The notes beneath the pieces were generated by a model. It was not told the DNA's origin, did not search any database, and was given only the letters and a program-made list of their open reading frames with translations. From assembly GCF_001909285.1 (NCBI RefSeq), contig NZ_MRSV01000001.1, positions 2,126,556 through 2,190,555 on the forward strand: a DNA stretch of 64,000 nucleotides, written 5' to 3'. This DNA is from Exiguobacterium profundum (GTDB taxonomy: Bacteria; Bacillota; Bacilli; Exiguobacteriales; Exiguobacteriaceae). Of this stretch, positions 16,144-57,323 are shown in pieces (the first letter of the stretch is position 1; each line of letters starts with the position of its first letter). The position numbers and the translations under genes were made by a program.

Positions 16144-17454
16144 TCAAAGATCTTTATACTGTTGTATCGTTTCTAACGCACGGTTCGCGTAACGCTCGTA
16201 CCGTTCTTGTTTCTTCATCTTTTTCGGAGCGTCTTCTAGTGATGGTACCAATCCGAAGTTTGCATTCATCGGTTGGAAATGCTTCCCGTCGGCTGTCGTG
16301 ATATAATGCGCCATCGAACCAAGCATCGTCTCACGCGGGAGAACGACGAGTTCTTCACCTGCGATCATCTTCGCCGCATTGATTCCAGCTAGAAGCCCGG
16401 ACGCTGCCGACTCCACATATCCTTCTACCCCTGTCATCTGACCGGCGAAGAAGAGCGTGTCACGTGTACGCGCCTGATACGTCGGCTTGAGTAAGCTCGG
16501 TGAGTTGATGAACGTGTTACGGTGCATGACACCGTAACGGACGATGTCCGCATTCTCGAGTCCCGGGATGAGACGGATGATGCGCTTCTGTTCGCCCCAC
16601 TTCAAATGTGTTTGGAAGCCTACCAAGTTATACAGTGTGCCCGCCGAGTTGTCTTGACGAAGCTGAACGACGGCATATGGACGTTTTCCTGTCTTCGGGT
16701 CTTCTAATCCGACCGGCTTCATCGGTCCGAAAAGAAGCGTCTTTTTCCCACGCTCGGCCATGACTTCAAACGGCATGCATCCTTCAAAGTAAATCTCTTT
16801 TTCAAACTCTTTTAGCGGAACGACTTCTGCCTTGATCAGCTCTTCGTAAAAAACGTCAAACTCTTCTTCTGTCATCGGACAGTTCAAGTAAGCGGCTTCA
16901 CCTTTGTCGTAACGCGACTTCAAATAGACTTTATCCCGATCAATCGTATCACCATCTAGAATTGGTGCTGCCGCGTCATAGAAGTAGAGATAATCTTCTC
17001 CTGTGAATGCCTTGAGTGATGCAGAGAGGTCAGGGGAGGTCAAAGGGCCAGTCGCCACGATGACGATCCCTTCAGGAATCTCTTTGAGCTCTTCGTTGTG
17101 CACTGTGACATTCTCGTGGTTCTTTAGCTTCTCGGTGATGAATCCGGCAAACTCATGACGATCGACGGCAAGGGCACCCCCAGCAGGTACACTTGCCGTG
17201 TCCGCCGCCTTTAAGATGAGCGAGTCAAGCGTACGCATTTCTTCTTTCAAGACACCTACGGCATTTTGAAGACCGTTCGCACGTAGCGAGTTCGAACAGA
17301 CGAGTTCTGCAAATTGATCCGTGTGGTGCGCCGGTGTTTGACGAACCGGTCTCATTTCATACAAATCTACTTGAATACCGCGCTTAGCGAGTTGCCAAGC
17401 CGCTTCGGAGCCGGCCAATCCAGCTCCGATTACAGTTACACGTTGTTGCAACAT
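16144..17454 (-). CDS. trmFO: Methylenetetrahydrofolate--tRNA-(uracil-5-)-methyltransferase TrmFO
   Basis: 436 residues from ATG 17454, which follows GAGGAGG and forms a TAATG overlap with the stop of full-length topA. The FAD-binding motif [20 protein letters not shown] is at the N-terminus. TrmFO makes 5-methyluridine at position 54 of tRNA using methylene-THF and [23 protein letters not shown] is a typical C-terminal motif. It is the normal neighbour of topA and xerC. Confidence 0.96.
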
Positions 17455-19550
17455 TAATCCTCCTCTTGCTGATGTACCTCGGTGTGGGTACAGTTCGTAC
17501 ATTGATATTTCACGCCGTCTTTAATTTTTTTCTCGACCATCTAACTGTCGCATACTGGACACGGTTTCGCAACCGGTTTATCCCATGAGACGAATTCACA
17601 TTCCGGATAGTTCGAGCAACCATAGAATAGACGACCTTTTTTACTACGACGTTCTACGATTTGTCCATCCTTACAGTTCGGACACGGGACACCGATTTCG
17701 ACTTGTACCGGTTTCGTGTTCGTACAGTTCGGGAAGTTCGAGCACGCCATGAACTTGCCGTAGCGTCCCATCTTGATGACCATTGGTGACCCACAGACTT
17801 CACAATCAATTCCGGCAGGTTCATCTTTCACTTCGATTTTCTCGATTTCTTCTTCAGCACGCTTCAATCGTTTCTCGAAAGAACGATAAATCGGAGCGAC
17901 GACTTCCGTCCACTCGACTTCCTTATGCTCGATCGAATCAAGAAGGGTCTCCATGTCGGCCGTGAACTGGACCGTGATGAAGTCGTTGAAATACTCATCA
18001 ATCATCTCGATGACGAGTTCTCCAAGTTCAGTCGGTAAAAACTTTTTCTCTTCGAGAACGACATAACCGCGTCGTTGGATCGTGTCGAGTGTCGGCGCGT
18101 ACGTCGACGGACGACCAATCCCGAGTTCTTCCATCGCTCGAACGAGTCGCGCCTCTGTATAACGAGGTGGCGGTTGTGTGAAGTGTTGTTTCGGCTCAAT
18201 CGTTTCAAACGTCACGGTATCATCCACTTCGAGAGGTGGCAATAATCCTTCCTTCTCTTGGTTCGTGTCCTCAATGTCATCGTCTTTCGACTCGATATAC
18301 ACTTTCATGAAACCAGGGAATTTGACTGTCGACCCGTTCGCACGGAAAATCATCCCGTTCGACTCGACGTCGATTTTGACCGTATCAAGAACAGCTGGCG
18401 CCATTTGGCTCGCAATCAATCGTTCCCAAATCAACTTATACAGTCGCAACTGGTCACGTGACAGATATGGCTTCAAGGAAGCTGGGTCGCGCAATGCTGA
18501 AGTCGGACGAATCGCTTCGTGCGCGTCTTGGGCATTCGCTGATTTCTTTTCTTTTTGTTTCTGTGAGGCGACATACTCTTCACCGAATGTCGATTCGATA
18601 TATTCCTTCGCCTCCGTCTTCGCCAAATCAGAGATACGTGTCGAGTCGGTACGCATATACGTAATCAAACCGACTGTACCCTCTTTTTTACCGAGATCTT
18701 TTCCTTCATATAATTGCTGCGCGAGCATCATTGTCTTCTTCGCACGGAAATTCAATTTACGGGCAGCATCCTGCTGCAATGAACTTGTCGTGAACGGTAG
18801 CGAAGCGTTCCGCTTCCGTTCTTTCTTCGTTACATCAATGACTTTAAACGTATCATCGATGGTATCGAGGACAGATTGCGCGTCTTCTTCAGACTTCAAT
18901 TCCATCTTCTTCCCATCTTTTCCGTAAAATGAAGTCTCGAACGTTTCCCCATCATGATTTAAATCAAGTTTAATCGTCCAATACTCTTCCGGGTCGAACG
19001 CGTTAATTTCGCGCTCACGGTCGATAATCATCTTCACGGCTACCGATTGAACTCGCCCTGCAGACAATCCTTTTTTGTTTTTTTTTCATAATAATGGGCT
19101 CATCCCGTATCCGACAAGACGATCTAAAATACGTCGGGCTTGTTGTGCATCGACAAGATCGTGATTGATCTTACGTGGATGTTTAAACGATTCTTTAATC
19201 GCATCTTTCGTAATTTCGTTAAAGACGACACGACATTCTGTCGTTTCATCGACACCGAGTGCGCGTGCTAAATGCCAAGCAATCGCTTCCCCTTCTCTAT
19301 CGGGGTCGGCCGCGAGAAAGATTTTTGTCGCTTTTTTCGCTGCTGTCTTCAATTCTTTCAATACCGGTCCTTTACCACGGATGGTAATATACTTCGGTTC
19401 AAAGTCGTGTTCGACGTCTACACCGAGTTGACTTTTAGGCAAGTCAATCACGTGCCCCATCGAAGCTTTGACCATATAATTCGGACCTAAATAACGTTTA
19501 ATTGTTTTTGCTTTCGCAGGTGATTCGACGATCACCAGATATTTTGCCAT
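17454..19550 (-). pseudogene. topA: DNA topoisomerase I, interrupted by two in-frame stops (TGA codon 155, TAG codon 670)
   Basis: The whole frame is 698 codons (B. subtilis 691). It starts [20 protein letters not shown] with the TOPRIM motif ([20 protein letters not shown]). A TGA at 19086-19088 breaks [12 protein letters not shown] from [19 protein letters not shown]; the family has Trp there. The catalytic Tyr is in the [12 protein letters not shown] region (about 300). Three C-terminal zinc fingers follow; the third (CPVC...CTNC) is cut by a TAG at 17541-17543 and then continues [17 protein letters not shown] to a TAA at 17454 that overlaps the trmFO start. Both stops are in frame with no indel. 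The gene is essential in relatives, so sequence error or read-through should be excluded before calling it dead. Visible open pieces: 19086-19550 and 17541-19067. Confidence 0.93.
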
Positions 19551-19615
19551 ACATCTGCTCCCCTTTTAGAGGTCATTTAAATCCCTACCATAATATTCAT
19601 GTTCTCACTGGTTTG

Positions 19616-20410
19616 TCAACGTACAATCTTGAGATCTCGAATAATTTGATCGGAATTCGTCAATGGAATCGCACCTTCTTCAATCAACCGGTTCGGTCCC
19701 TCCGCGAGTGGATCAAGGGGTGAACCTGGCACCGCAAATACCGTTTTCCCTTGCTCTAGAGCATGTCCGACCGTATTCATCGTCCCACTCTTTCGTCTCG
19801 CCTGTATAACGACCAACGCATCGCCAAGACCACTGACCAAACGATTTCTTTCCAAAAATTGAAATTTTTGAATCGGCGTGTTTGGTACATATTCACTAAG
19901 TAAGACTCCCTCTTGTGGAATCTGTAAAAGCATGTCCCGGTTCGCCTCCGGATAGAGCCGGTTCAGTCCAGCTCCCAGTACCGCCACGGTCGGTCGACGA
20001 GCGCGAAGGGCATGGGCGTGGACGAGCCCGTCGATTCCGAGGGCGCCACCTGAAACAGATACAGTTTCTTCTATTAAAGAGTGATAGTGATTCACGAGCG
20101 ATTGACTGATACGATTCAACTCACGACTTCCGACCATCGCAGTCGTTCTTTCTTGTAGTACCTCTAAATCTCCATGATAAAACAAGCAATATGGTGGGTT
20201 GGGGATGTCGAGTAACCGTTTCGGAAACAAGTCGTCTTCCCATGTGACGAAATGTTTATACGACTCCGATGCGTGCCAGGCTCGTTCAGCCCGTCTCCAG
20301 ACATGTTCAGAAAATTGTGTGCGATGTGCTCCGAGTGTCCCGTTTAAATAATGATGCACAAACTCAACTGGCATTCGTGCTGCAGCAAACCGAGCTATTG
20401 TTTGATTCAT
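19616..20410 (-). CDS. dprA: DNA-processing protein DprA (Smf)
   Basis: 264 residues from ATG 20410, set by AAAGGAG upstream. A Rossmann-like fold begins near TTAMVGSRELNRIS, with VSGGALGIDGLVHAHALRAR, GAGLNRLYPEANRDML and FAVPGSPLDPLAEGPNRLIE, all standard DprA motifs. No C-terminal winged-helix domain is present. DprA loads RecA on incoming single-stranded DNA during transformation. It lies between sucD and topA as in B. subtilis. Confidence 0.94.
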   Translation of the reverse strand: MNQTIARFAAARMPVEFVHHYLNGTLGAHRTQFSEHVWRRAERAWHASESYKHFVTWEDDLFPKRLLDIPNPPYCLFYHGDLEVLQERTTAMVGSRELNRISQSLVNHYHSLIEETVSVSGGALGIDGLVHAHALRARRPTVAVLGAGLNRLYPEANRDMLLQIPQEGVLLSEYVPNTPIQKFQFLERNRLVSGLGDALVVIQARRKSGTMNTVGHALEQGKTVFAVPGSPLDPLAEGPNRLIEEGAIPLTNSDQIIRDLKIVR

Positions 20411-20425
20411 CACAAACTCTCCTTT

Positions 20426-20454
20426 AAAAAAATGAGGGATGCAAGCATCCCTCA
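20426..20454 (-). terminator. Rho-independent terminator after sucD
   Basis: TGAGGGATGC and GCATCCCTCA form a 10-bp stem with a 2-base centre, followed on the minus strand by seven T residues. It lies between the sucD stop and the dprA ribosome site. Confidence 0.9.
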
Positions 20455-20460
20455 AGATTC

Positions 20461-21378
20461 TCATGTCGTCGGTTGACCCGTGACACATGCTTCGTATAAT
20501 CCTTGCTGTTTCAAGACACGAATCAACGTTTCACCGATAACCGCTGGTGTTTCAGCGACTTCGATTCCATTCGCGTTCAATGTCTTGATCTTCTCAGCAG
20601 CCGTCCCTTTACCACCTGAGATGATTGCGCCCGCATGTCCCATGCGCTTGCCTTCAGGAGCCGTCTGGCCGCCGATGAAACCGATGACTGGTTTCGTCAT
20701 GTTGGCTTTTACCCATTCAGCTGCCTCTTCTTCAGCCGTTCCACCGATTTCCCCGATCATGATGACCGCTTTCGTGTCCTCATCTTCGTTGAACGCTTTA
20801 AGCGTATCGATGAAGTTCGTTCCGTTGACCGGGTCTCCCCCGATTCCAACAGCTGTCGATTGTCCGATACCTGCTGTCGTCAACTGATGAACCGCCTCAT
20901 ACGTGAGCGTCCCAGAACGTGATACGATTCCGACGTGCCCTTTCGTATGAATGTAGCCAGGCATGATGCCAAGTTTCGCTTCTCCAGGTGTGATGATACC
21001 AGGACAGTTCGGTCCGATTAAACGAGCCGGTTTGTCCTCGAGATAGCGCTTCACTTGAATCATGTCCACAACTGGGATTCCTTCTGTGATACAGATGATG
21101 AGCTCGATGCCGCTGTCTGCCGCTTCCATGATTGAATCCGCTGCGAAAGCAGGTGGAACATAGATGATCGATGCATTGGCACCAGTTGCTTCGACCGCTT
21201 CAGAGACGGTGTTGAAGACTGGAACGTTGTCGAGGACCGTCGTGCCACCTTTACCAGGTGTGACACCACCGACTAATTTCGTGTTATATGCGAGCATCTG
21301 TTCACCGTGGAACAGACCTTGCTTCCCTGTAATCCCTTGAATGATTACTTTCGTATCTTTATCCGCCCAAATACTCAT
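20461..21378 (-). CDS. sucD: Succinate--CoA ligase alpha subunit SucD
   Basis: 305 residues. CoA-binding N-terminal domain ([20 protein letters not shown]), then ligase domain with [20 protein letters not shown] and the phosphohistidine site [18 protein letters not shown] (His near residue 248). With SucC it makes succinate from succinyl-CoA with substrate-level phosphorylation in the TCA cycle. It lies 12 bases after sucC in one operon. Confidence 0.97.
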
Positions 21379-21390
21379 GTCGTTTCCCCC

Positions 21391-22551
21391 TTATCGAACA
21401 AGTGCTGCGATTTTTTCTGCTTCGTCAGCCATCGAGCTGGCCGTCGTGATCGCAAGTCCAGATTCATCGAGAATGCGCTTCCCGGCATCAACGTTCGTTC
21501 CTTCTAAGCGAACGACGAGTGGTAAGTCGAGTCCGATTTCTTTCGTCGCAGCGACAATCCCCTCTGCGATGATGTCACATTTCATGATCCCACCGAAAAT
21601 GTTAACGAAGATCCCTTTGACCTGGTCATCAGACAAAATCAACTTGAATGCTTCTGTTACTTTTTCTTTCGTCTTACCGCCACCTACGTCGAGGAAATTA
21701 GCGGGTTCAGCGCCGTAATGTTTGATGATATCCATCGTTGCCATCGCAAGACCGGCACCGTTGACGAGACAACCGATGTTTCCGTCGAGTGCGATGTAGC
21801 TGAGGTCGTGTTTTGACGCTTCTACTTCACGTGGGTCTTCTTCCGTCGTATCACGAAGAGCAAGGACGTCCGAGTGACGATAGAGCGCGTTGCTATCGAA
21901 GTTCAACTTCGCATCGAGCGCAATGACGTTACCGTCTTTCGTCGTGACGAGCGGGTTGATTTCCGCGATTGTGCAATCTGTCTCGACGTACACTTTATAC
22001 AGCTTCATGACCATGTCACTGAACTTATTGACAAGTTTCGTCGGGACTTCCATTTTGAATGCGAGACGACGCGCCTGGAATGGACGTAAGCCAACGACCG
22101 GGTCGACGATCTCTTTATGAATCTTCTCTGGTGTATGTTCAGCGACTTCTTCGATGTCCATTCCACCTTCAGATGAACCCATGATGACAATTCGGCCGAT
22201 CGAACGGTCAAGCACGAGTCCTAAGTAAAATTCTTGGTCAATCGCAGAACCTTCTTCGATATAGAGACGCTGGACAACTTTTCCTTCCGGACCTGTTTGG
22301 TGTGTCACGAGCGTTTTCCCGAGAATCTCTGAAGCATATTGCTTCACTTCTTCATCTGTCTTCGCAAGTTTAACACCACCCGCTTTACCGCGGCCACCTG
22401 CGTGGATTTGAGCTTTTACTACCTTCACTTCACCTTCAAGCTTCGCAGCAGCTGCAACAGCTTCTTCAACAGTAAAGGCCGGATAACCCGTCGGAACGGC
22501 TACCCCAAACTCTCTTAACAATTCTTTCGCCTGATACTCATGGATATTCAT
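21391..22551 (-). CDS. sucC: Succinate--CoA ligase beta subunit SucC
   Basis: 386 residues. N-terminal ATP-grasp domain ([20 protein letters not shown], then [20 protein letters not shown]) and C-terminal ligase domain with [20 protein letters not shown] and [18 protein letters not shown]. Full length. It is first in the sucCD operon, whose promoter carries a cre-like site. Confidence 0.97.
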
Positions 22552-22590
22552 ATGTTTTCCCCCTTAGTCCCCTTTAATATCGGCACGTCT

Positions 22591-22932: not shown

Positions 22933-23792
22933 ATTTGGAGGTCCACCTTTCCGAGCGGTGCAAACGTTGCCGGAACGTGTTCACGCTTCGCTTCATACGA
23001 AAATGAAGACAGTTCGAATGACACCTTTTTTAAACCTTCTTTCAAAAGTGGTTCGTATGTACGGACGTATGGAGCCAAATCGTGTTGCTCATTGAATACA
23101 CGTACGGACACGTAACGCTTTTGAATCAACACATCAATCCCGGTCTCACCATATCGCGGCGTTTCAAGAAACAAGACGATCCGCGCATGATCCGGGTCCA
23201 TCGTCTCTCGTTTCGGGGCCTCTAGACGAAGTTGAACGTTTTCAAACGGACCCAATTGCGGTATGTGAAATGCTTGAGCGACGAACGGCGGGCTTTGGCT
23301 CGCGTTGAACGCTTCCTGCGCACGCACGAACTGCTCGAACTTCGGCTCACCTTTCGCTTTGAATAGCTCCCCGACGAGCGCTTTTACATCCTGACCTGCG
23401 CCGCTTTCTAACGCGGTTTTGCCGGCCGCCTTCACGGAGTCCGGCGTCAGCATCGGTTCTCGCATCAGGCGTCCGAGCTGTTCTCCTAACGCCTGCAGAG
23501 GCGACTTGGCTGCCATGAGCGATTCTGTCGCTTGCGTGACGACCTTCAAGACGAGCTTCGGTTCAACGTCCGTGACGACCAGCTTATACGTGACGTTCTC
23601 TTTCACGTTCGCATTGACACCGACCCGGAAAATCCCTTGGGGTAGTTGCATAACCGCCTCGTTGCCAGGTAAGAGCTGCAACACCTTTCCAACGACTGTG
23701 TTCCCTAGTAATAGCGGGCGTGACGTCTGTTCCGTCACTTTGAACGGCATCACCCCTTGATGATCGATCCGCAACGCGACCACTCCTTTCAC
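22929..23792 (-). CDS. FliK-like protein of unknown role (YlqG position)
   Basis: 287 residues from ATG 23792; an AAAGGAG inside the first codons makes a TTG at 23774 an alternative start. The N-terminal part is beta-rich ([20 protein letters not shown]). The C-terminal part (about 185-260: [20 protein letters not shown], then [11 protein letters not shown]) resembles the C-terminal domain of FliK hook-length proteins. The ATG overlaps the stop of full-length rnhB (ATGA). It is coupled to the FlhB-C-like gene. I infer a FliK/FlhB-C-style interaction; the function is unknown. Confidence 0.7.
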
Positions 23793-24541
23793 ATATGCTT
23801 GATGGGGGCAAACGTACGGCGATGAATCGGAGTCACCCCAAGGCGTCTTAACCCTTCTAAATGAGCCTCTGTTCCATATCCTGCGTTTTTCGCAAATCTT
23901 TATCCAGGATACGTCAAATCATATTCTTCCATCATCCGGTCCCTTACCACCTTAGCGACGACACTTGCCGCGGCTATCGACACACTGAGCGTGTCCCCTT
24001 TAATCAATGACTGTTGAGGGATGTCGAGCTCGAGTTTCATGGCGTCAATCAATAGGGCGTCTACTTCTCCGACTTGATGAATCGCCTCTGTCATCGCTAG
24101 TTTCGTCGATTCGTATATATTGATGACATCAATCGTCTTCGGCTCGACGATGCCGACACCGACCTCCGCGACCTCGATGATGTGTGCGTATGCTGCATCC
24201 CTCGCCGTTTTGGACATTTTTTTCGAATCATTCAATCCCGCGAGATAGAACCCATCCGGTAACAAGACTGCCGCAGCCACGACCGGTCCCGCGAGCGGTC
24301 CCCGTCCGACCTCATCGACTCCGACAATTCGAGTGAAGCCTCGCGCCTTCCATTCATGTTCATACGTCATGCGACGTTCGAAATCGACCTGTAACGCCCG
24401 TTCTCGCTCGAATTGACGCTGTTTTTGCCGAAGCAACGTTTGCACGCCCGCTCGAGGGTCTCGTGACAAGGTCGGGAAGATTTGTACCCATTCTTCATAT
24501 CGGATGTCCTCTAGTTGTTGTTTAATCTGTTGAATCGTCAC
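23789..24541 (-). pseudogene. rnhB: Ribonuclease HII, interrupted by in-frame TAA at codon 214
   Basis: 250 codons from GTG 24541, chosen because AGGAGG lies 6 bases before it. RNase HII motifs: VGVDEVGRGPLAGPVVAAAV (catalytic Asp and Glu), SKKMSKTARDAAYA, VDALLIDAMKLELD and KGDTLSVSIAAASVVAKV. After EEYDLTYPG a TAA at 23900-23902 occurs where relatives have Tyr, and the frame goes on [20 protein letters not shown] to [11 protein letters not shown] and a TGA at 23789 that overlaps the next start. As read, the protein would end 36 residues early, losing the conserved GYGT segment. It removes RNA from RNA/DNA hybrids and misplaced ribonucleotides. Confidence 0.92.
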
Positions 24542-24557
24542 GGTCTTCCTCCTATTC

Positions 24558-24584
24558 AAAAAAGCCCTGTGTGCACAGGGCTTT
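24558..24584 (-). terminator. Hairpin terminator after rbgA
   Basis: AAAGCCCTGTG and CACAGGGCTTT pair with a small loop and are followed on the minus strand by a run of T. It overlaps the natural TAA of full-length rbgA (24583-24585), which supports that more distal stop as the original end, and it precedes the rnhB start. Confidence 0.85.
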
Positions 24585-25443
24585 ACGCCATTTCGTGATC
24601 AGCCGGTGTTTCAAGCGAGATCCGTCCGATTTTTTCATGTCGTAGTTCATTCAAAAGTAGTTCGCTCGCTTTTTCGAAATCGTCTTAACCGCCACTGATG
24701 AGACCACGCTTTTTCCCGATCAACTCAAGGAGCTCAACGCTGTCCTCGGGTAACGTTTCAAGTTTGAATCGTTCCTTTAATTGTTCAGGATAACGAGCAT
24801 GCAACTCGCGAACCGTATACAAGGCGATATCATCCAAGTTGAGAATCTCGTCTTTGATAGCGCCGGTCGCGGCTAGACGATATCCGACAAGTTGGTCCTC
24901 AAATTTCGGCCAGAGAATCCCCGGCGTGTCCAACAGCTCCATCTCGCCGCCTTTCATCTTGATCCACTGTTGACGCTTCGTCACACCAGGACGGTCGCCC
25001 GTGATGGCGATGTTTCGTCCGGCGAGACGGTTGATGAGCGTCGACTTCCCGACGTTCGGGATTCCGATGATGAGCGCACGGATCGGTCCGGGGTTCCGCC
25101 CCTTCTCACGCATCCGGTCATGCTTTTCTTTCATCAACTTCTGAGCACCCGTGATGAGCTGTTTCAAGCCTTTGCTATGTTTCGCGTCGACAGCGACAAC
25201 CTCGACTTCTTCGCGTTTCAAGGCACGTAACCACGCCTCCGTCACGACGGGGTCGGCCATGTCTGCTTTGTTCAAGACGATGAGACGGGGTTTTCCCGCT
25301 GTAATCTCATCGACCATCGGGTTGCGACTCGACTGAGGCACTCGTGCATCTACGAGTTCGATGACGACATCGATTAGCTTTAATTTTTCAGTTACTTGTC
25401 TTCTTGCTTTGGCCATGTGGCCAGGAAACCATTGAATTGCCAA
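24583..25443 (-). pseudogene. rbgA: Ribosome biogenesis GTPase RbgA (YlqF), interrupted by in-frame TAA at codon 253
   Basis: 286 codons; B. subtilis RbgA is 282. Circularly permuted GTPase: [21 protein letters not shown]4 LNKADMAD, G1 [18 protein letters not shown], and G3 [14 protein letters not shown]. The TAA at 24685-24687 falls after RGLISGG; the frame continues DDFEKASELLLNELRHEKIG to ISLETPADHEMA and a TAA at 24583. Without the tail the last C-terminal helix, which contacts the 50S particle in relatives, would be lost. The gene is essential in B. subtilis for late 50S assembly, so error or read-through should be tested. Confidence 0.9.
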
Positions 25444-29956: not shown

Positions 29957-30982
29957 TTAGGCGAGGTCCTCGTTTGTGTCCTCTTTTTCCATCGAGGCAT
30001 CCTGTGTCTTGTCCTCAAAAACATCGCCGAACAGTCCAAGGACGAACTGTTCTGGATCAAACTCCTGTAAATCGTCAATCTTCTCTCCAAGTCCGACATA
30101 CTTGACCGGGATATCGAGTTCGTTCCGAATCGCTAGGACGATTCCGCCTTTGGCCGTCCCATCGAGCTTCGTTAAGACGATTCCGCTCACGTTCGTCGCT
30201 TCTTTGAACGCTTTCGCTTGAACCATGGCGTTTTGACCCGTCGTCGCGTCTAATGCGAGTAACACTTCGTGCGGTCCGTTCGGAACTTCCCGCTCAATGA
30301 CTCGTTTTACTTTTTCAAGTTCTTTCATTAGATTGACCTTATTTTGGAGACGTCCCGCCGTATCACAAATCAAGACGTCCATGTGACGAGACTTGGCGGC
30401 TTGAACGGCGTCAAAGACGACGGCAGCCGGGTCAGACCCTTCCGTTTGACGAATGACGGGAACCCCGACACGTTCTCCCCATACTTGAAGTTGCTCGATG
30501 GCGCCGGCACGGAACGTATCCCCTGCCGCGAGCATGACGGAACGCCCTTCAGATTTCAACTGGTGCGCCAGCTTGCCGATGGTCGTCGTCTTTCCGACAC
30601 CATTGACGCCGACAAACAAGATGACCGTAAGTCCGTCTTGCATATTCAGTTCACGGTCCGATTCATCCTCTTGGAGGCGGTTCGCCACGACTTCGACGAG
30701 TGCGTCACGCACCGCGACCGGGTCCTTCAGATTACGTCGCTTCACTTCTTCTTTCAAATCTTCGACGAGATCCATCGTCGTCGTGACGCCGACATCCGCT
30801 TGAATGAGTAAATCTTCGAGTTCATCGAAGAAATCTTCATCCACTTCGCGGAAGCGATAGACGAGGTCGTTGACGGCACTTGCAAAGCCGTCACGCGTCT
30901 TCGTCAACCCCTCTGTAAACTTTTGTGACACCTCTTGGGTAGATGTCGTCAACTTCTCTTTTAATTTCTTGAAAAAGCTCAA
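29957..30982 (-). CDS. ftsY: Signal recognition particle receptor FtsY
   Basis: 341 residues. N domain (about 1-105), G domain with VGVNGVGKTTTIGKLAHQLK, LICDTAGRLQNKVNLMKELE and LTKLDGTAKGGIVLAIRNEL. No long acidic A domain, as usual for Bacillales, but a short acidic C-terminal tail. It receives the SRP-ribosome complex at the membrane. The start overlaps the smc stop by 4 bases. Confidence 0.97.
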   Translation of the reverse strand: MSFFKKLKEKLTTSTQEVSQKFTEGLTKTRDGFASAVNDLVYRFREVDEDFFDELEDLLIQADVGVTTTMDLVEDLKEEVKRRNLKDPVAVRDALVEVVANRLQEDESDRELNMQDGLTVILFVGVNGVGKTTTIGKLAHQLKSEGRSVMLAAGDTFRAGAIEQLQVWGERVGVPVIRQTEGSDPAAVVFDAVQAAKSRHMDVLICDTAGRLQNKVNLMKELEKVKRVIEREVPNGPHEVLLALDATTGQNAMVQAKAFKEATNVSGIVLTKLDGTAKGGIVLAIRNELDIPVKYVGLGEKIDDLQEFDPEQFVLGLFGDVFEDKTQDASMEKEDTNEDLA

Positions 30983-33900
30983 CGTGATTCCTCCATCTCT
31001 TCATCCATTTCAACGACACGTTTTGCTTCAGACAGTTCGACCGATAATACCTCGGATACCCCGTTCTGTTGCATCGTGACGCCATATAGTGTATCCGCCG
31101 CTTCCATCGTCCCTTTACGGTGCGTGATGATGACGAACTGCGTATCGATTGACAACGTCCGAATGTATTCTCCGAAACGATGCACGTTCGCCTCGTCAAG
31201 GGCCGCCTCGACCTCATCGAGAACACAAAACGGTACCGGACGCGTCTTCAAAATCGCAAACAATAAAGCGATGGCCGTCAGCGCACGCTCTCCACCAGAT
31301 AACAGACTGAGTGTCTGTAACTTTTTACCCGGTGGTTTGGCGACGATTTCGATTCCTGTGTTCAACAAATCCGATTCGTCTACCAATTTCAAATCCGCTT
31401 CCCCGCCACCAAAAAGCTCGGTGAACGTCTGTTTGAAATGCGCCCGGACGCTCGTATACGTCTCTTTGAAGAGGCGTGTCACTTCGCGGTCCATCTCGGC
31501 GATGATCTCATATAAATCTTCTTTTGCACTGACGAGGTCATCCCGCTGTTCAGACAGGAACGTGAACCGTTCGTGGACACTATCAAACTCTTCGATCGCA
31601 TTTAGATTGACCGGTCCGATTTCTTCGATTTGACGAACGAGCAACTTAAACTCCTCTTTCGCCTCTTCTAACGGGATTTCGAGTGCCGGCAATAGTTCTG
31701 CGACGAGTCCGTTCTCTTCTAACACATCGAGCTTCCATTGTCGTTTCAGCTCGAACTCTTGTTTCGCCGTTTCAAGTTTTCGAACGACAGCTTCAGCTTG
31801 ACGTCTTGCCTCCGTTGCCTGATCGACCCGTTGACGTATGATCCGATACGCCTCTTCGTTCGTCTTGAGTGTTGTTGACGCTCCTTGAAGCCGCTCTTGA
31901 ATTTCTTTGAAATCCAGTTTGGCAGTAGCAAGCGTCGCCTCGAGTTCTGCAGATGACACGACTTCTCCACTCTCGAGCCGCGTCAATTCACGCTCCATCT
32001 GATCGCTACGTTCCTGCAAACGACTTTGGTCGGTCATCAGACGGTCCAATTCATATTGGACCCGCTCTTCTTCGAGCGTGTGCCGCTGAAGATCGAGCTC
32101 GTTTTGACGCAGCAACGATTCCAGTTGACCCGTGCTCTCAGCACTTTTCGCCTGCTCTGCCCGAAGCGATTCGAGGCGTGAACGAATGTCAGCTTGGGCG
32201 CGGTCCGTGTCGGCCAATTCAATCGTCAATCGCTCTAATTCAGCAGTCGAGGTCTCGATCGTCCGCTCATAGCGCATCATTTCATGATCGAACAGTTCCA
32301 GTTGTGACTTGGCATCGAGGGAGGCACGTTCCGCAGTACGGTAGGCCGATTCGACTTCACGGAGGCTCGTTTCAACGGAACGTTTCTCATCCCGAAGTTC
32401 AGACAACTGCTGCGTAATGTCCTCCAACTGTTCTGTGTACTCTTGAAGACGTGTTTTTTGCTCATGCAACATGGCGAGGCCTTGAGTGAGACCATGTTTC
32501 AAATCATCTAATTCGCGCGACTGAGTGAACAGGGCCACGCCTTGCTTGCGACTACCACCCGTCATGGATCCGCCAACGTTGACGATATCCCCTTCTAACG
32601 TGACGACACGGAAACGATATCCCGTCGATTGGGCGATACGGTTCGCGACTTCAAGTGTCTCCGCCACAAGCACGGAACCGAGCAACGACTTTTTCAACGT
32701 CTCGTATGATGCATCTGTTTCGACGAGTTCCGACGCCACACCGACAAATCCGTTCATCGAGTCGAGTCGATCTAACACCTCACTCGGCACGAATCTCGGT
32801 TTGATCGTCGTCAACGGCAAGAATGTCGCTCGTCCTGCGTTGGCTTTTCGTAATTTGTCAATTTCACGGCGTCCCACCGTCTCATCTTGTACGACCACAT
32901 GCTGCTGTGTCTGCCCAAGTGCCGTTTCGATGGCCGCTTCATACGAAGGACGGACACGGATCAGTTCCGCGACAGCACCAAGGACACCTGATGAACGGTC
33001 TTTTAAGACGAATTTGACCGCATGGAAATAGCCTTCATACGATTGCTTCATCCGTTCGAGCATCTCGATTCGGTCTTCCGTCTTCTGACGGCGGCGTTCG
33101 AGGTCGTAGAAAGACGATTCGGCTCGTGTACGTTTTTCACGAATTGCCGTCTCTTCGTCCCGAAGTTGCGTCTCTTTTTGACTCAGTTTTTCAAAGCGAC
33201 TTTGTACCGCTTCATACTGCTCTCGAGTCGCCAAAAGTGTCGCTTCCTGTGAGGAACGATCATCGAGACGATGTTTGTTCTCGCGTAGAAGGCGTTCTTT
33301 CGACTCGACGGCGACATCGATATCCCGTTGTTCCCGCTTTTGTTGGTTACCGATTGTCGCTTTCGTTGTCGCGAGTTCGAACGCCTCACTTTGTAACGCT
33401 TCGATTTCAGCATTGAAATCACGAGAGGCGGCTTTCAACTGTTGTTGAAGTGACTCTCTCGTCGCAGTCGTTTGTTTCAACGTGTTTCCTTTTTGGTCAA
33501 TTTTTTCATGAACGACCTTCAATCGCGCTTCAAGCTCGGTCATCTCTGCACGTACTTCTTCACGTTGTCGGATGAGTCGTTCTTTCATCTCGGCACCGTG
33601 TTCTTCTTGTGCTTTTGCGAGCTTGATGTCACCCGTCAAACGCTCGACATAGGTCGAATGCTCCCGTTCTTTTTGGTTCAGCTCTGTCAATTCTTCGCGT
33701 AACTCGGCGAGCTTCACTTCGAGCCCGCTACGTTCCTCCGTGAGGTCACGTAACGAACGGTCACAGTCAGATAACTGTTGAACAGATTCCACGTGACGTG
33801 CGGACACTTGCTCAATCTCCTGTTGGAGCAACTGAATTTCTGCGCCCATGATTCCTGTTTCGAGTTCATCATGTCTCGCTTTGGCGACTTTGTACTCCCG

Positions 33901-34536
33901 AGCGAGCGCCGCTTGTTCACGGAGCGGTTCGACTCGGTCCGCCAACTCGAATAAAATGTCATCGACCCGGGACAAGTTTAATTCGGTGTCCTGTAACTTG
34001 CGTTCAGCCTGTTTTTTCCGCTGACGTTATTTCAATACACCGGCTGCCTCTTCGATGACGGCACGTCGATCTTCCGGTTTCCCAGAAATGACTTGTTCGA
34101 CCCGCCCTTGACCGATGATGGCGAATGCATCTCGTGAAAGACCTGTATCCATAAATAAATCAATCACATCTTTTAACCGACATGGTTTTTTATTCATAAT
34201 ATAGTCGCTGTCCCCACTTCGGGTCACGCGACGGGTCACACTCACTTCTTCATATGGGAGACGCAACTGTTCGTCTCGATTATCGAGAACGAGGGTGACC
34301 TCGGCGACATTTCGGTGATTCTCTCCTTCACTTCCGGCAAAGATGACATCTTCCATCTTGGCACCACGAAGTGATTTGGCCGACTGTTCTCCGAGTACCC
34401 AGCGAACAGCGTCCGATATATTGGATTTCCCGCTCCCGTTCGGCCCTACTACAGCCGTGACGCCGGGACGGAAATCTAATTCAATTCGCTTGGCAAATGA
34501 TTTAAAGCCAGCGAGTTCGATTCGTTTTAAGTGCAT
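30979..34536 (-). pseudogene. smc: Chromosome partition protein SMC, interrupted by in-frame TAA at codon 170
   Basis: 1185 residues if read through (B. subtilis 1186), from ATG 34536 (MHLKRIELAGFKSFAKRIEL). Walker A VVGPNGSGKSNISDAVRWVL; long coiled coils; hinge with GRATFLPLTTIKPRF and GGSMTGGSRKQG; signature LSLLSGGERALTAIALLFAI; Walker B PFCVLDEVEAALDEANVHRF. TAA at 34027-34029 lies in EEAAGVLK*RQRKKQAERKL, where the family has Tyr; the frame is unchanged and homology resumes at once. As read, only the N-terminal ATPase half would be made (178 residues), while 30979-33975 is an open remainder. SMC condenses and separates chromosomes with ScpA/ScpB. Confidence 0.93.
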
Positions 34537-34650
34537 CGTGACCATCCTATCCGCAGTAAGCATTCATCTGTATATTTTACCACAGTTAACAGTTCGTCAA
34601 AATGCCCGAATCATGCTATTCTAAAAAGAACTGTAGAAAGGGGAATACAG

Positions 34651-42249: not shown

Positions 42250-42912
42250 TCATTCCCCAAAAATAGCTATCCGTTCGATTTGCGGTAACCGTTCCAGCTC
42301 TGCTAACACTTCCGCAGGAATGGTCTCATCAATCTCAATCGCCATCAACGCCTGCATCCCTTTTTCATGGCGGCTCACTTCCATATGACCAATGTTTAAT
42401 TGGTGATTCGCCAACACACCGGTCACAGCCGCGATGGCTCCGAATCGATCATGGTGCAAGACGACGAGTGCAGGCCCCCCACCTGTCAGTTTCAACGGGA
42501 ATCCGTTCAGTTCGGTAATTTCAATCGTTCCCCCGCCGATTGAGATCCCGACAATCTCAAATGTGCCCAATTCATCTTCGAGTAAGACCCGGGCCGTATT
42601 CGGGTGATCCGTCAACAGATCACTCGTCTCAAAAATGACCTCGATCCCTTTTTCACGGGCGATTTCTAACGCTTGTGGGATTCTCAGATCGAATGTATCG
42701 AATCCCATGATTCCACCGACGATGGCCACATCCGTACCGTGTCCCCGATACGTGTCAGCAAACGACCCATAAAATGTGATGTGCGCGGTACGCGGCGTTC
42801 TCCCGAACAACTTACCAGCCATCAAGCCGATGCGGGCAGCACCTGCTGTATGCGAACTCGACGGTCCGACCATGACCGGGCCAATAATGTCAAACACACT
42901 ACGATATTTCAT
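42250..42912 (-). CDS. sdaAB: L-serine dehydratase, iron-sulfur-dependent, beta subunit
   Basis: 220 residues from ATG 42912. VFDIIGPVMVGPSSSHTAGA is the family signature; the C-terminus is an ACT domain (from about 148: LVVLHHDRFGAIAAVTGVLA). It pairs with SdaAA. A TATAAT sequence lies inside the loop of the terminator just upstream (minus strand), a possible -10 box with no good -35. Confidence 0.96.
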   Translation of the reverse strand: MKYRSVFDIIGPVMVGPSSSHTAGAARIGLMAGKLFGRTPRTAHITFYGSFADTYRGHGTDVAIVGGIMGFDTFDLRIPQALEIAREKGIEVIFETSDLLTDHPNTARVLLEDELGTFEIVGISIGGGTIEITELNGFPLKLTGGGPALVVLHHDRFGAIAAVTGVLANHQLNIGHMEVSRHEKGMQALMAIEIDETIPAEVLAELERLPQIERIAIFGE

Positions 42913-48436: not shown

Positions 48437-48451
48437 TATGACTACCTCCCT

Positions 48452-50440: not shown

Positions 50441-51171
50441 CCTCTCTTTCTATCTGTGAATTGAACGAGGGCGACCGTGATATTGTCGCTCCCTCCCAAT
50501 TGATTGGCTTCTGCAATGAGTTGCTCCGCTTTTTGTTCGGCGGATGCCGTTTGTTGTAATACGTGTTGAATCGCCACATCGGTCATGTGTGTCGTCAATC
50601 CATCCGTACAAATTAAAATCACATCAAACTCAGGGTCAGCGAGCACTTGCACGTCAGGTTCGACTTGTTCGCTTGAACCGATTGCCCGGGTGATGACATT
50701 TCGTTTCGGATGAACCCGCATCTCTTCTTCCGTCAATTCACCGAGTTGTTTGAGCACATTGACGTAAGAATGGTCCTCCGTAAGACGTCTTAACTCATTC
50801 GCCTGGAGCGCATAGACGCGACTATCTCCGATATGGACGATGACCACCGTCTCTTCATTCCAACAAACAGCTGCCACAGTCGTTCCCATCATGACAAGAT
50901 TGGACTGCTTCGCAAATTGCAACACTTGATCGTTCGCCAAATCGATGTGGTGGCGGAACCATCGTTCGATTTCGACAGGGGTTGTCGGGAGAGACGGGAA
51001 CGCCCGTCTAAATTCTTCAATCACGATTTGACTCGCAACCTCTCCCGCTGCATGCCCACCCATTCCGTCTGCAACCAGGGCAATCCCGGTTATGGCATCA
51101 CCTAAGATTAAAACTGCATCTTCATTTTGTGTGCGTACTTGTCCACGATCTGTTCGAAATGCTAATTCCAT
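50437..51171 (-). CDS. prpC: PP2C-type protein phosphatase PrpC
   Basis: 244 residues from ATG 51171. PP2C motifs: RTQNEDAVLILGDAITGIAL, VADGMGGHAAGEVASQIVIE, HIGDSRVYALQANELRRLTE, ILICTDGLTTHMTDVAIQHV and GGSDNITVALVQFTDRKRG. It removes phosphates added by PrkC and uses two metal ions. Its ribosome site (GAGGTAATC) is weak. Confidence 0.95.
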   Translation of the reverse strand: MELAFRTDRGQVRTQNEDAVLILGDAITGIALVADGMGGHAAGEVASQIVIEEFRRAFPSLPTTPVEIERWFRHHIDLANDQVLQFAKQSNLVMMGTTVAAVCWNEETVVIVHIGDSRVYALQANELRRLTEDHSYVNVLKQLGELTEEEMRVHPKRNVITRAIGSSEQVEPDVQVLADPEFDVILICTDGLTTHMTDVAIQHVLQQTASAEQKAEQLIAEANQLGGSDNITVALVQFTDRKRG

Positions 51172-51179
51172 CTTTCTGA

Positions 51180-52265
51180 TTACCTCGTTTCTTGTTCGCG
51201 CTCCTTCGCTCGAAGCTGTCCACAAGCGGCATCGATGTCCGACCCTTGCTCGCGACGGATTGTCACATTCACATTGCGGTCTTTGAGCACTTTTTCGAAG
51301 GCAAATATTTGAGCTCGCGGTGTCCGTACATAGTCACGTTCGAGTACATGGTTGACGGGAATCAAGTTGACGTGACATTTGATTCCTTTTAACAGGTCTG
51401 CCAAGAGATGGGCATATTCTTCCGTATCGTTGACACCACCAAAGAGTCCATATTCAAACGTGATGCGACGTCCGCTCTTCTCTGTGTAATAACGGACCGC
51501 ATCCATCAACTTGTCCAAGTCAAAGGCACGGTTGATCGGCATGAGCTTGGTACGCAATTCCGTCGTCGGTGCGTGAAGTGAAATGGCGAAGTTGATTCGC
51601 ATACCTTCATCGGCAAACTTGTAAATCTTCGGAACAATCCCACTCGTCGATACCGTGATGTGTCGTGCTCCGATGTTGAGTCCATTGTCATGGTTGACAG
51701 TACGTAAGAAACGCATTAACTCATCGTAGTTATCGAACGGTTCGCCGATTCCCATGACGACGATAGAGTCGACGCGCTCTCCTGTCGCGTCTAATGCACG
51801 TTGTACGTCGAGCACTTGAGCTGTGATTTCCCCGGCTTCTAAGTTTCGTTTCAAGCCGCCGAGTGTCGAGGCACAGAACGTACATCCGATCCGGCAACCG
51901 ACTTGTGTCGTGACACAAATCGAGTTTCCGTATTCGTGACGCATGAGTACCGTTTCAATTGAGTACCCGTCCTGAAGTTCAAACAAGAACTTGATTGTGC
52001 CGTCTTGGGATTCCTGCTTGACCAATTCTTTTAACGTCGTCAATTGGAACGATGCCTCTAATTTGTCGCGAAGCGCTTTCGGAACGTTGGTCATATCATC
52101 AAAAGTCGTGACCCGTTTGACATACATCCAATCATATAATTGTTTCGCACGGAATGCCTTTTCTCCTGCCTCGATCACCCATGCCTCAAGTTCTGGAAAC
52201 GTCAACGAATAGAGTGACGGTTTTGCGCCTACGAGTGGATTCTTTTCTACTGCTTTTGGATTCAT
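51180..52265 (-). CDS. rlmN: 23S rRNA/tRNA adenine C2-methyltransferase RlmN
   Basis: 361 residues. Radical SAM with the CxxxCxxC cluster site in [40 protein letters not shown] and the second Cys near the end ([14 protein letters not shown]). It methylates A2503 and tRNA A37. It lies in the rsmB-rlmN-prpC-prkC group. Confidence 0.96.
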
Positions 52266-52268
52266 GTT

Positions 52269-53600
52269 TTATACCTCTTTCTTAAATGCGGCGATATAGA
52301 AGCCGTCGGTCCCGAATGTCGTCGGTAATAATTTTAGTTCAGCACGGTCCGATTCCATCATCGGACGAACAGATTGTGGGAGACGACCTTTGAGCGTTTC
52401 GTCCCACATCAACCCTTTCAACAGAATATAGTCAGCCTGCGTCTCATTTTCAGACGGGTCGATTGTACATGTCGAGTAAACTAGCGTACCACCTGGTTTG
52501 AGCAGTGGCAATACGGCATCAATGATTTGTCTTTGTATCTTTGGTAAGTTTTCGAGTTGAGCTTTGTCCTTCGTCCATTTAATATCCGGCTTTCGACGAA
52601 TGACGCCAAGGCCCGAACAAGGGACATCTAAAAGAATCCGGTCAAAACTTTCTTCTTCAAACCGTTCACCTGCTAAACGAGCATCAAGGGCAAGTGCGGT
52701 CACTCCATTGATGTGTAGACGTTTGGCTTGTTGATCAATCAATTTTGCTTTATGTGGATGAAGGTCAAGCGCGGTGAGCGATCCACCTTGCATTCGCTCT
52801 GCCGTATGCATCGCCTTGCCGCCTGGCGCGGCACATGCGTCTAGGATGACATCGTCTTTCGACACGTTGAGTGCATCCGCGACAATCATGGAGCTCTCAT
52901 CTTGAATCGATAGAAGACCTTCCTCGATAAACGGGGTCGCATGAACATTGCCAGACTCTACGACAAGTCCATCAGCAGATAGTTCAGAACGTGACGTCAT
53001 GACGCCAGCGTCAGCCAACCGGTTCATCATCTCATCCACTGAAATACGCTTTCGGTTGACCCGAATCGTAACAGGAGCAGGTTCATTGTTTAATCGGCAA
53101 ATCGCTTCTGCCGTTTCCACACCATATAACTCAATCCAATCTGATACGAGCCATTCCGGATGACTGTGCTCGATGGCGATTCGTTCTGCATCGGTCAAGC
53201 CACTAAAGTCCGGAAACCCTTCCCGAAGCACATTTCGTAACACCCCGTTTACGAATTTGCTCGTTCCGAGGTGATGACCTCGTTTTTTCTTGATTTCTAC
53301 CGCCTCGTGTAGGACGGCCCGGTCGGGTACTTTATCAAGATAGAAGAGTTGATAAACGCTCATCCGAAGAAGCGGGAGGACAAACTTGTCTAGCTTCTTC
53401 GGCGAACGGATGCGGTCTTTCAAAATATAATCGAGCGTCCCTTTGCGACTGAGCGTCCCATATACGAGTTCGGTATAGAGACCGACATCTTTTGGGGCAA
53501 CTTTTTTTTGTTTCAATGTATCATTGACGGCAATCGTCGAATACGCGCCGCCTTGTTCAATTTTCATCAGCGTATCAAGCGCTGCTTCACGTACGTTCAT
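52269..53600 (-). CDS. rsmB: 16S rRNA (cytosine-C5-)-methyltransferase RsmB (Sun)
   Basis: 443 residues. N-terminal NusB-like RNA-binding domain (about 1-140), C-terminal SAM domain with [20 protein letters not shown] and the catalytic pair of Cys in [18 protein letters not shown] and [14 protein letters not shown]. It makes m5C967 in 16S. The start overlaps the end of the def-fmt fusion by 14 bases. Confidence 0.96.
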
Positions 53601-54987
53601 GAGTTCCTCCTAATCGGTCGCCAATCCGTAGCTTTTGTCCGGCGCCACGCATGAAGGTTGCACCATCCATCCGTTTCTTACCTGCGGGTTGCAAATCGGT
53701 CACTTTGATTGCTACGTCGTTCCCTGTCGCCACGACAAATCCGTCTTCTTCCAGACGAATGACTTCTCCCGACTGTCCCGTTCCTGTCGTTTTTTCTCCC
53801 ATTTTCAATTTCACTCGTTCGCCTTCAAGCGTTGAATAGGCCGTCGGGAATGGATTCATTCCTCGAATATGGTTGTAGATGGACTCGCCATGCTTCGTCC
53901 AATCAATCTGTTCACGCTCACGGCTGATGTTCGGAGCAAACGTCACGTCTCGCTCGTCTTGAGGCACCGCCTCAATCCACCCTTCCAAGAAGGCCGGAAG
54001 CGTACGGATGAGAAGATCGCTTCCTGCTACAGCCAGTTTATCAAATAAAGACCCGACTGTATCCGTCTCTTCAATAGGTACGATGGTATTGGCAATCATG
54101 TCCCCTGCATCTAACTTGTCGACCATGTACATGATCGTCACACCTGTCTCCGACTCCCCATCAAGAATGGCTTGATGGATCGGGGCACCTCCGCGATATT
54201 TCGGAAGGAGGGAGGCATGTACGTTGATGGCTCCGTGAGGCGGGGCTTCTAGTAAGGCGGTCGGCACGATTTGTCCGTACGCCGCCGTCACAATCAAATC
54301 AGGCTTCAGCTCTAAAATTTCTGCATAGTCTGTGCGCACTTTTTCAGGCTGCAACACGGGAATACCGTGACGAAGCGCACACTCTTTTACTGGAGTCGGC
54401 TTAAGTTCACGTTTTCGCCCGACCGGTTTATCCGGTTGCGATACGACACCTACGACATTGTATCCTTCTTCAAGCAGTCGCTCAAGTACCGATACGGCGA
54501 ACGTCGGCGTCCCCATGAAGACGATGCGTTTGTCTTTTCCAGGGTTCGGGACGGCGAGCTTGTCTGTGAACAAGACGCCATCCAAATGATCCATCTCATG
54601 TTGAATCGCACGAGCGAAAAAGCCGCTCGCTTGAATCGTATGTGTCCGCCCTTTCAAATCTTGATTCTTGACGACGATCGACTCGTGTCGTTCCACGAAT
54701 CCGAATTCGCCTGGGATGCTCAAACATCCCTCTAGTCCAACTTCTCGACCGGATGTTTCAATGATTTCCGGGTTGATCAAGACGAGCGGTCCCGTCTCAT
54801 CATCGGTATGGACGACCGCGAGCCGCTGGTTCAAATTGACTTGCGGTGCCGCGACACCAACTCCGTCATACTCATACATCGTATCAAACAATCGGTCGAC
54901 AGTCTGACGCAATTTTTTATCAAACTTTTTCACCGGTTCGCACGTTACGCGCAAAATGTCATTAGGTACTTCTACTACTTTATACAT
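53587..54987 (-). CDS. Fused peptide deformylase / methionyl-tRNA formyltransferase
   Basis: 466 residues in one frame from ATG 54987 (AGGTGGAG upstream). Residues 1-about 142 are peptide deformylase: GVGVAAPQ (42-49), EGCLS (86-90) and HEMDH (130-134). A short linker ([13 protein letters not shown]) leads directly into Fmt: [53 protein letters not shown] and a C-terminal beta-barrel. In B. subtilis defA and fmt are adjacent separate genes; here no stop, start or ribosome site lies between them. One polypeptide would both add and remove the formyl group of initiator Met. Confidence 0.9.
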
Positions 54988-54998
54988 GTCTCTCCACC

Positions 54999-57323
54999 TC
55001 ACATGAATACGTATGGGTTCACATCGATACTCATTTGATATTCTTTCTTGCTGATTGCTTTGGCTCTCGCTTGCTGTAATCGTGCCAGCTCCACATAGAG
55101 TGCTTCGGGTTGTTTTGTTTTAATGAATACTTGATAACGATAGGCGTTCTTCAACTTCGATAACGGCGCGGGCATCGGTCCATTCAGGCGGCTGTTCTCC
55201 ACGTGCGCTTGTAAAAAGTCTGATGCGAACAATTCTGCCTCTGCCTTGGCGACAAGGGGATTTTCCGCCGAAAACGTGACGAGCGTCAAAAACCAGTAAG
55301 GCGGATGGTTCCCGACTTGTCTGAGTCCCATCTCTTTGAAAAAAAATGTCTCATAATCATGTTCACTCGCAGTCTCGATCACATAATGGTCCGGGTTATA
55401 CGTTTGAACGAACGCCTCACCCGGAAGTTTTCCGCGCCCGGCTCTTCCTGCCACTTGGGTGACGAGTTGGAAGGTGCGTTCGGTCGCCCGAAAATCAGGC
55501 ATCCCGAGTGTCGCATCCGCCGCGAGTACCCCGACGAGTGTGACGTTTGGGAAATCGAGCCCCTTGGCAATCATCTGCGTGCCAAGTAAGATGTCGGCCT
55601 CCCCTTCTTCGAAACGACGCAACAACTGCTCATGTGAACCTTTTCGAGACGTCGTATCCTGGTCCATTCGGATGATGCGCGCTTCTGGAATCCTGTTCAA
55701 CAGTTCCGTCTCGATTTTTTGTGTGCCCGACCCGAACTGTTTGATTTTCTTACTATTGCAGGATGGACACGTCGACGGCATACTGACCTCATAACCGCAG
55801 TAGTGACACTTCAACCGATCTCCATATTGATGATATGTCAAATTGACGGCACAATGCGGACATGTCATGCCTTCCCCGCAGTCCCGGCACATGACGAACG
55901 TCGTGAATCCACGACGGTTCAATAAAATGACGCACTGCTCTTTTTTCTCGATCCGGTCGAGAATCCCTTGGAACAATTCTTCCGAGAACATCGTCGTATT
56001 GCCTTTCGCCAATTCACGTCGCATATCGATAATGTGGACCGGTGGCATCTCTCCACCATACCGTTCTTTCAAATGCAAATAGTGATAGACGCCTTTTTGT
56101 GCCCGAGTTTACGATTCAAGTGAAGGGGTCGCACTGCCCAACACGACGGGACACCCATGATAGCGGGACCGCCAGATGGCAACATCGCGCGCATGATAAC
56201 GAGGATTTTCCTCTTGCTTGTACGTCGTCTCGTGCTCTTCATCTAAGATGATGAGACCGAGTCGGTCGAGCGGGGCAAAGATTGCAGAACGGGCACCAAC
56301 GACGACGTCGACTTCATTTCGTTTAATCTTACGCCACTCGTCGTACTTCTCACCTTTAGACAGAGCGCTATGCAACACGGCGACCCGATCGCCGAAACGA
56401 CGTTTGAAGCGTTTGACCATCATCGGAGTCAAACTGATTTCGGGAACGAGTAAGATGGCTTGTTTCCCTTCATCGATGACTTGTCCGATTGATTCTAAAT
56501 AGACTTCGGTCTTCCCGCTTCCCGTCACACCGTGGACGAGTAACGTCTCACCCGCGTCAGCCTCATGAATGGCCCGAACCGCGTTGGCTTGACTGTCGTT
56601 CAATTGAACCGATTCCTCGACTTGCTCGATTGTCGCGTACGGGTCACGATTCAACTCGACCTCGGTCAATCGAACCGCTCCGAGTTCCGCAAGTTTCTGC
56701 AGTTGTGGGCGAGTCAGCCCAATTTGGCGAAGTGCCGACCAATACATGCGTGGGGTCTCCTCAAGTTGGCGGACCGCTTCTAGTTGTTTTTTCGCACGTT
56801 TCGAGACGACTGTCGCATCGAGGAGTTCGACGACGACGTCTGTCTTAACGGTCTTCTTTTCTTTTAAGACGGGTGCTAAGGTCAGCTCCCCTTTTTTAGC
56901 GAGTCCTAGAATGACTGACTGAACTTCTTTCGGATACTCCGATAAATGCGTTCCGAGACGGACCCCATCAGGGACTTGTCCTTCTTTGATTTCTTTGTCA
57001 TAACTGACCTTGAGCGCGGCCGGAAGCATCGCAAGCAAGGCGGATGAACGAAAGCAAAGTGTCGTCTCTTTCACATGGATGGATAAAGCGAGCAGTTCGT
57101 CAGTGAGTGAAGATTCCTCATCTAACAGCGCTTCTAACGGTTTCAATCCTTCCCTCGTCCCATCTGACGTACCAACAACGATTCCGAGGAGACGTCGTGA
57201 GCCGAATGGGACGGAGACGCGCATGCCCGGTTCAATCAATGCTTCAAATTGTTCAGGTACTTCATAATCAAACGGACGGTCAATCGTGATCACCGGTGCA
57301 TCGACATGTACATGTGCAATCAT
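54999..57323 (-). pseudogene. priA: Primosomal protein N' (PriA helicase), interrupted by in-frame TAA at codon 405
   Basis: 774 residues if read through. The 3'-DNA-binding N domain ends near about 110; helicase motif I HGVTGSGKTEVYLESIGQVI; DEEH box in ILDEEHETTYKQEENPRYHA; then GSATPSLES followed by the TAA at 56109-56111, where relatives have Tyr. The frame continues TRAQKGVYHYLHLKERYGGE, Zn ligands CRDCGEGMTCPHCAVNL and CHYCGYEVSMPSTCPSC, and GTQMIAKGLDFPNVTLVGVL with GRAGRGKLPGEAFVQT. As read it would be a truncated 404-residue helicase without zinc ribbons. PriA restarts collapsed replication forks. Confidence 0.93.

Follow-up and report, generated by a model that had tools for sequence, protein, structure and literature searches.

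The window, as we call the whole 64-kb stretch of DNA that was analysed (G000:C1:2126556-2190555), lies on contig 1 (2,832,066 bases) of an Exiguobacterium profundum genome of 2,917,168 bases in 21 contigs. Its minus strand carries topA, rnhB, rbgA, smc and priA, which were identified by NCBIfam model matches and are interrupted by six in-frame stop codons, two of them in topA (Table 1). A sequence-only reading had claimed these six stops without a frame shift; all six were located, and the reading frame was identical on either side of each. Alignment with the five nearest congeners (G013, G001, G010, G002 and G016; 82-89% identity by aligned piece) revealed no insertion or deletion in the window relative to all five. 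The relatives in the named collection are Exiguobacterium sp. s48, sp. s124, E. aestuarii, E. qingdaonense and E. algae, together with one Texcoconibacillus.

Table 1. Interrupted genes, their in-frame stops and a rewritten stretch in the window (T-runs are on the plus strand; distances are counted past the run)
Feature	Position	Strand	Model match or congener residue	Changed base	T-run and distance
topA, DNA topoisomerase I	17454..19550	-	TIGR01051 either side of first stop; frame from G016		
topA second stop TAG	17541..17543	-	Leu or Met	17542	T7, 17525-17531; 11 nt
topA first stop TGA	19086..19088	-	Trp	19086	T6, 19071-19076; 10 nt
rnhB, ribonuclease HII	23789..24586	-	NF000594 before stop, 239.7 bits (cut-off 243)		
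rnhB stop TAA	23900..23902	-	Tyr	23900; 23899 altered too	T5, 23886-23890; 10 nt
rbgA/ylqF, ribosome biogenesis GTPase	24583..25443	-	TIGR03596 before stop		
rbgA (ylqF) stop TAA	24685..24687	-	Tyr (one His)	24685; 24683 altered too	T5, 24670-24674; 11 nt
smc, chromosome segregation protein	30979..34563	-	TIGR02168 either side of stop		
smc stop TAA	34027..34029	-	Tyr (five congeners)	34027	T6, 34012-34017; 10 nt
priA, primosomal protein N'	54999..57323	-	NF004066 and TIGR00595 either side of stop		
priA stop TAA	56109..56111	-	Tyr (five congeners)	56109; 56108 altered too	T5, 56094-56098; 11 nt
8 nt rewritten as TTTTTTTT	306..313	+	Length as in congeners		Follows T6 run

Each of the six sites holds a sense codon in all five closest congeners: Leu at the topA TAG, Trp at the topA TGA, and Tyr in rnhB, rbgA, smc and priA. 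The residues previously proposed from relatives, Trp at the topA TGA and Tyr in smc, priA and rnhB, were thereby confirmed in five of five congeners, and the two sites that had been left uncertain are Leu (topA TAG) and Tyr (rbgA). The comparison of smc and priA covered these five genomes; topA, rnhB and rbgA were compared with 18 congeners and were open in every one. All 18 encode Trp at the topA TGA and Tyr at the rnhB stop, the topA TAG site is Leu in 7 and Met in 11, and the rbgA site is Tyr in 17 and His in one. Over the 67 genes and 20,276 codons of the window, this genome has 6 in-frame stops, a number above chance expectation, compared with 1 in G013, 2 in G001, 2 in G010 and 1 in G002, which were taken as counts and not stop by stop; G016 has none by construction, as its frames defined the genes here and in the 464-kb counts described below. 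A plus-strand open reading frame at 42850 was left out of the window counts of stops and of strictly conserved columns as spurious.

Stop read-through, or suppressor tRNAs that decode TAA, TAG and TGA at the six sites, would be compatible with the absence of a frame shift and with family homology on either side, and the accessible part of one study (PMC7918605) proposes that read-through is frequent in prokaryotes. However, three stop types here replace three different residues, and read-through leaves unexplained the missense and silent changes that carry the same signature as the stops. Conservation of the stops, looked for as a sign of read-through, was absent: none of the five congeners shares any of the six, and none of the 18 shares those in topA, rnhB and rbgA. 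The anticodons CUA, UUA and UCA were not found among 27 tRNA-like places, an incomplete set that makes this a weak point. We consider the probability of read-through negligible. Reassignment of the code was rejected as well. TGA at Trp, TAG at Leu and TAA at Tyr do not amount to one stop with one meaning, and the missense and silent changes bear the same mark; the earlier statement that a simple code change cannot explain the stops stands.

Changes to T downstream of T-runs

All six stop-making bases are changes to T on the plus strand, located 10 or 11 nt past a T-run; positions 10-11 nt past a run of T5 to T7 account for 0.43% of all window positions. Private missense changes also occur in codons neighbouring four of the six sites. 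The base responsible for the topA TAG is nt 18 counted from the start of its run, slightly beyond the 16-nt limit described below, and that run has itself been extended by one private C-to-T change. At the topA TGA, 19078-19079 also became T, and the script placed the stop 1 nt past the T8 run 19078-19085, which these further changes created. Such changes are not confined to stops. Private radical missense changes in the window mostly introduce an A on the coding strand, here the minus strand, so that Lys replaces residues such as Thr, Arg, Gly, Ala, Phe, His, Ser or Ile, and in the plus direction a T-run lies immediately upstream of most clusters of changes to T. The clearest example of the error away from stops is the rewritten stretch listed last in Table 1. 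Private changes within runs of at least eight equal bases number 15 in this genome and 0 in each of the five congeners.

Two other clusters in the window were recorded. At 2013-2017 the congener sequence CCGAG reads AAAAA with its length kept, upstream of an A-run; this is the mirror-image error, following a T-run on the minus strand, and one of the rare minus-strand cases. A group of seven mixed private substitutions within 16 nt (12674-12689) has no T-run in the 8 bases upstream and differs from the T-run errors.

The rule was quantified over 464 kb of the genome, comprising block A (900-1020 kb), block B (1927-2127 kb), the window (block W) and block C (2191-2271 kb), by comparison with G016, G002 and G001; alignment of block A was partial, covering 58-102 of its 120 kb. 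Private transversions to T were preceded by TTTTT within 12 nt in 164 cases and followed by it in 23, out of 2238; the corresponding upstream and downstream counts were 22 and 17 of 2100 in G016, 24 and 14 of 1246 in G002, and 21 and 21 of 1492 in G001. Longer runs were more often followed by a private change to T within 12 nt (T5 106/483, T6 81/196, T7 or longer 23/47), compared with 41/487, 23/187 and 3/49 in G016 and 24/471, 13/186 and 3/50 in G001. A scan of upstream 5-mers ranked TTTTT first, with 426 observed against 141 expected, followed by overlaps such as TTTTC; the same scan of G016 gave no comparable enrichment. Enrichment of T at single offsets gave a weak picture only.

The changes have a defined reach, mostly within 16 nt of the run start with a peak at nt 15-16. 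For conversion of A or G to T at nt 15, 16 and 17, the counts were 23/288, 45/323 and 6/329 after T5 runs and 19/123, 28/121 and 6/130 after T6 runs; G016 at nt 15 and 16 gave 4/285 and 4/300 (T5) and 2/127 and 3/103 (T6). The effect was absent after T4 runs (A or G to T), and after T7 runs it extended to nt 18 with a less sharp edge. All of A, C and G were converted (67/1175, 62/929 and 51/908, respectively, over 26 nt after T6 runs). No effect was seen after C- or G-runs, of which long ones are few. In an 8-kb region compared across 18 congeners, the pooled congeners showed 15/1711, with the highest value in G003 (3/87), and this genome showed 6/79 on the contig plus strand and 0/40 on the other. 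The signature is thus tied to an upstream TTTTT and is absent from the related genomes compared, as expected of a technical context.

In-frame stops were also counted over the 113,109 codons of the 464-kb set, excluding genes with a stop in both G002 and G001 or with fewer than 40 comparable codons. This count yielded 39 stops here, 16 in G002 and 9 in G001; smc is absent from the window part of the list, so that five window stops appear there instead of six. The signature, here a change to T at most 11 nt from a run of at least five T, was present in 22 of the 39 (16 on the plus strand and 6 on the minus strand) and missing from the other 17, which were taken in bulk. The excess over G002 and G001 is what ordinary pseudogenes, the decay of genes no longer needed, would also produce. 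Against such decay, the window contains no private insertion or deletion and hence none of the frame shifts that decay would bring, topA, rnhB and rbgA are intact throughout the 18 congeners, and the stops keep a nearly fixed distance from T-runs; we judge pseudogene formation exceedingly improbable. Outside the window, polC, encoding the replicative DNA polymerase (L094 14388-18680, corresponding to G000:C1:2100943-2105235), has an in-frame TAA in place of a Tyr codon at two sites, L094 17565 and L094 18231, and each shows the T-run signature.

Selection, contig strand and replication direction

Rates of change to T were compared by coding effect at near-run positions, defined as those at most 16 nt from the start of a run of at least five T, using only T-runs common to all three congeners and excluding runs lengthened here. 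Near-run changes in this genome were silent at 66/676 sites (9.8%), missense at 160/2813 (5.7%) and nonsense at 15/299 (5.0%); elsewhere the rates were 7.5%, 0.45% and 0.09%. The near-run figures for G016 were 36/647, 13/2597 and 0/271, and nonsense changes were likewise lacking near runs in G002 (0/270) and G001 (0/262). Subtraction of the G016 rates left an excess of about 4% silent, about 5% missense and about 5% nonsense changes. As these values are nearly equal, selection has not acted on the changes, and purifying selection has left no mark on the changed bases. In a living population such changes would not go unselected.

A stricter count was made in the window at columns after T-runs where the five congeners agree. 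T was found only in this genome at 59 of 795 eligible plus-strand positions (42 missense, 9 silent, 2 nonsense and 6 non-coding) and at 5 of 394 on the minus strand, and the congeners each showed 6-11 of 722-800 on the plus strand. Only two of the six stops score as nonsense in this count, as the other four sites either vary among the congeners or need a second change to become a stop. Wrong bases at such columns therefore number about 50 in the 64 kb of the window. The sequence-only reading had predicted silent and missense errors alongside the stops if these were base-call errors; they are present in numbers, but at about 50 in the strict columns against a guess of about 100. It had also been struck by how many essential genes were hit within 40 kb. 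That number is what an error blind to selection would produce in a region so dense in genes.

An effect of the coding strand or of transcription, first suspected from the radical changes to A on the coding strand, was ruled out: the rate on the contig plus strand was similar whether the T-run lay on the coding strand (21/272) or on the template (179/2555), and on the minus strand it was low for both (14/1171 and 8/405). Likewise, in blocks B, W and C taken together, runs on the contig plus strand gave 19/204 in plus-strand genes and 177/2477 in minus-strand genes, and T-runs on the minus strand gave 5/291 and 13/1120, near background. An effect of the replication strand was also rejected. Measured against G016, the plus strand exceeded the minus strand where GC skew is negative (B, 197/2196 versus 46/1380; W, 63/666 versus 2/368; C, 95/864 versus 14/453) and where it is positive (640-700 kb, 54/517 versus 16/464; 1300-1380 kb, 51/637 versus 13/641), and since the plus-strand effect persists under either skew, the direction of replication is not its cause.

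Independence from gene and replication direction had two exceptions. Both strands behaved alike in block A (900001-1020000, L100-L105; plus 47/647, minus 42/740), where the sub-contig perhaps had a different history, and the effect was weak at 2400001-2440000 (L181 and L182; 6/281 on the plus and 2/196 on the minus strand). Of the six stretches tested besides the window, the rule was clear and bound to the plus strand in four, two-stranded in one and weak in one. With G016 as the query, block B also showed a small plus-strand excess beyond 16 nt (68/2039 versus 34/2309), a point against the reading as an error of this genome's sequence.

Real mutation, that is, a T-run-directed mutational process in the strain that yields true nonsense alleles, would account for changes that are non-random and linked to a sequence feature. 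It does not fit nonsense and missense changes being as frequent as silent ones at near-run positions, in polC, topA, smc and priA, genes whose importance is well established. Nor does it fit an effect that tracks the strand of the contig as deposited, irrespective of gene direction or GC skew, as the cell cannot know that strand. An effect tied to the orientation of the deposited contig cannot originate in the cell, and we regard real mutation as very improbable. Neither real nonsense alleles nor stop read-through, both of which had been offered as options, gained support from these data. The remaining option, base-call error, is supported if it is widened to errors in the deposited sequence.

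Origin of the changes and comparison with known systems

The pattern argues that the six stops are almost certainly errors in the deposited consensus and not mutation or recoding in the cell. After a plus-strand run of at least five T, a following A, C or G is sometimes written as T. In the window this leaves the length unaltered; it happens mostly within 16 nt of the run start and most commonly at nt 15-16. Read on the opposite, coding strand, such an overwrite turns a Tyr, Trp or Leu codon into TAA, TGA or TAG. Sequencing reads derive from both strands. Given a bias bound to the contig strand, a consensus computation or polishing step run in one direction would be the likeliest point of entry.

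A fault in the reads themselves, whether from the chemistry or from base calling downstream of T-runs, is the main alternative to a consensus error. It is unlikely, yet it carries appreciable weight. The downstream direction and the dependence on run length resemble a read fault, and the two-stranded block A fits it better. Illumina sequence-specific errors were reportedly described by Nakamura et al. in 2011. Strand-specific and run-making Illumina errors are also described in the accessible parts of two papers (PMC4719071, PMC2943903). However, reads from two strands predict errors on both contig strands, which is at odds with the plus-to-minus disparity of the strict columns in the window. 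Our search of this genome gave no 16S rRNA gene, which might have pointed to a short-read draft; this was dropped, since the same search misses the gene in 5 of the 14 named controls. The missing gene, like the low number of tRNA-like places, may reflect a limit of the search or of the sequence data.

The consensus reading removes an apparently dramatic finding and leaves in its place a deposited-sequence artefact with an unusually sharp signature. It also provides a simple test for similar cases, in which the distance of the stop-making base from a T-run is measured on the deposited strand and the rates of nonsense, missense and silent change near T-runs are then compared. In a genome with such an error, spurious pseudogenes would be expected, along with spurious positive selection and spurious recoding of stop codons, and the sharp rule could serve as a screen of other public genomes. 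Whether the TTTTT-triggered overwrite is an undocumented consensus artefact of some assembly or polishing program, and is present in other public genomes too, is a tentative suggestion that we find quite plausible but on balance slightly doubtful; if the artefact is widespread, false pseudogenes and false recoding candidates are to be expected in those genomes as well. Among open-licence PMC papers, seen mainly as listings, we found no published account of this T-run rule or of a source platform or program, which is not proof of absence.

Known systems offer partial parallels. Strand-specific, homopolymer-linked errors are reported for several platforms in the accessible parts of three papers (PMC4719071, PMC2943903, PMC11140927), the first of which reviews sequence-specific and strand-specific platform errors and notes that homopolymers raise error rates. 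The errors seen here are similarly dependent on context and strand. Unlike the homopolymer errors in the available text of that review, which are mainly insertions and deletions, they are substitutions to T only, follow at least five T, have their edge near 16 nt and keep to one contig strand. PMC2943903, in its accessible part, describes Illumina errors at read ends, involving all four bases, by which near-homopolymers become true homopolymers. Substitutions likewise extend a run into the mixed sequence beside it at window 306-313, but here only T is written, the errors stand in a finished consensus, and they fall mostly at nt 15-16 with the intervening bases intact. Finally, the read-through study (PMC7918605), as far as its accessible part goes, kept as candidates only stops common to two or more genomes. 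Its cases resemble ours, each being one in-frame stop in a gene that is otherwise intact, but none of the congeners compared shares the six stops described here, which obey the T-run rule.
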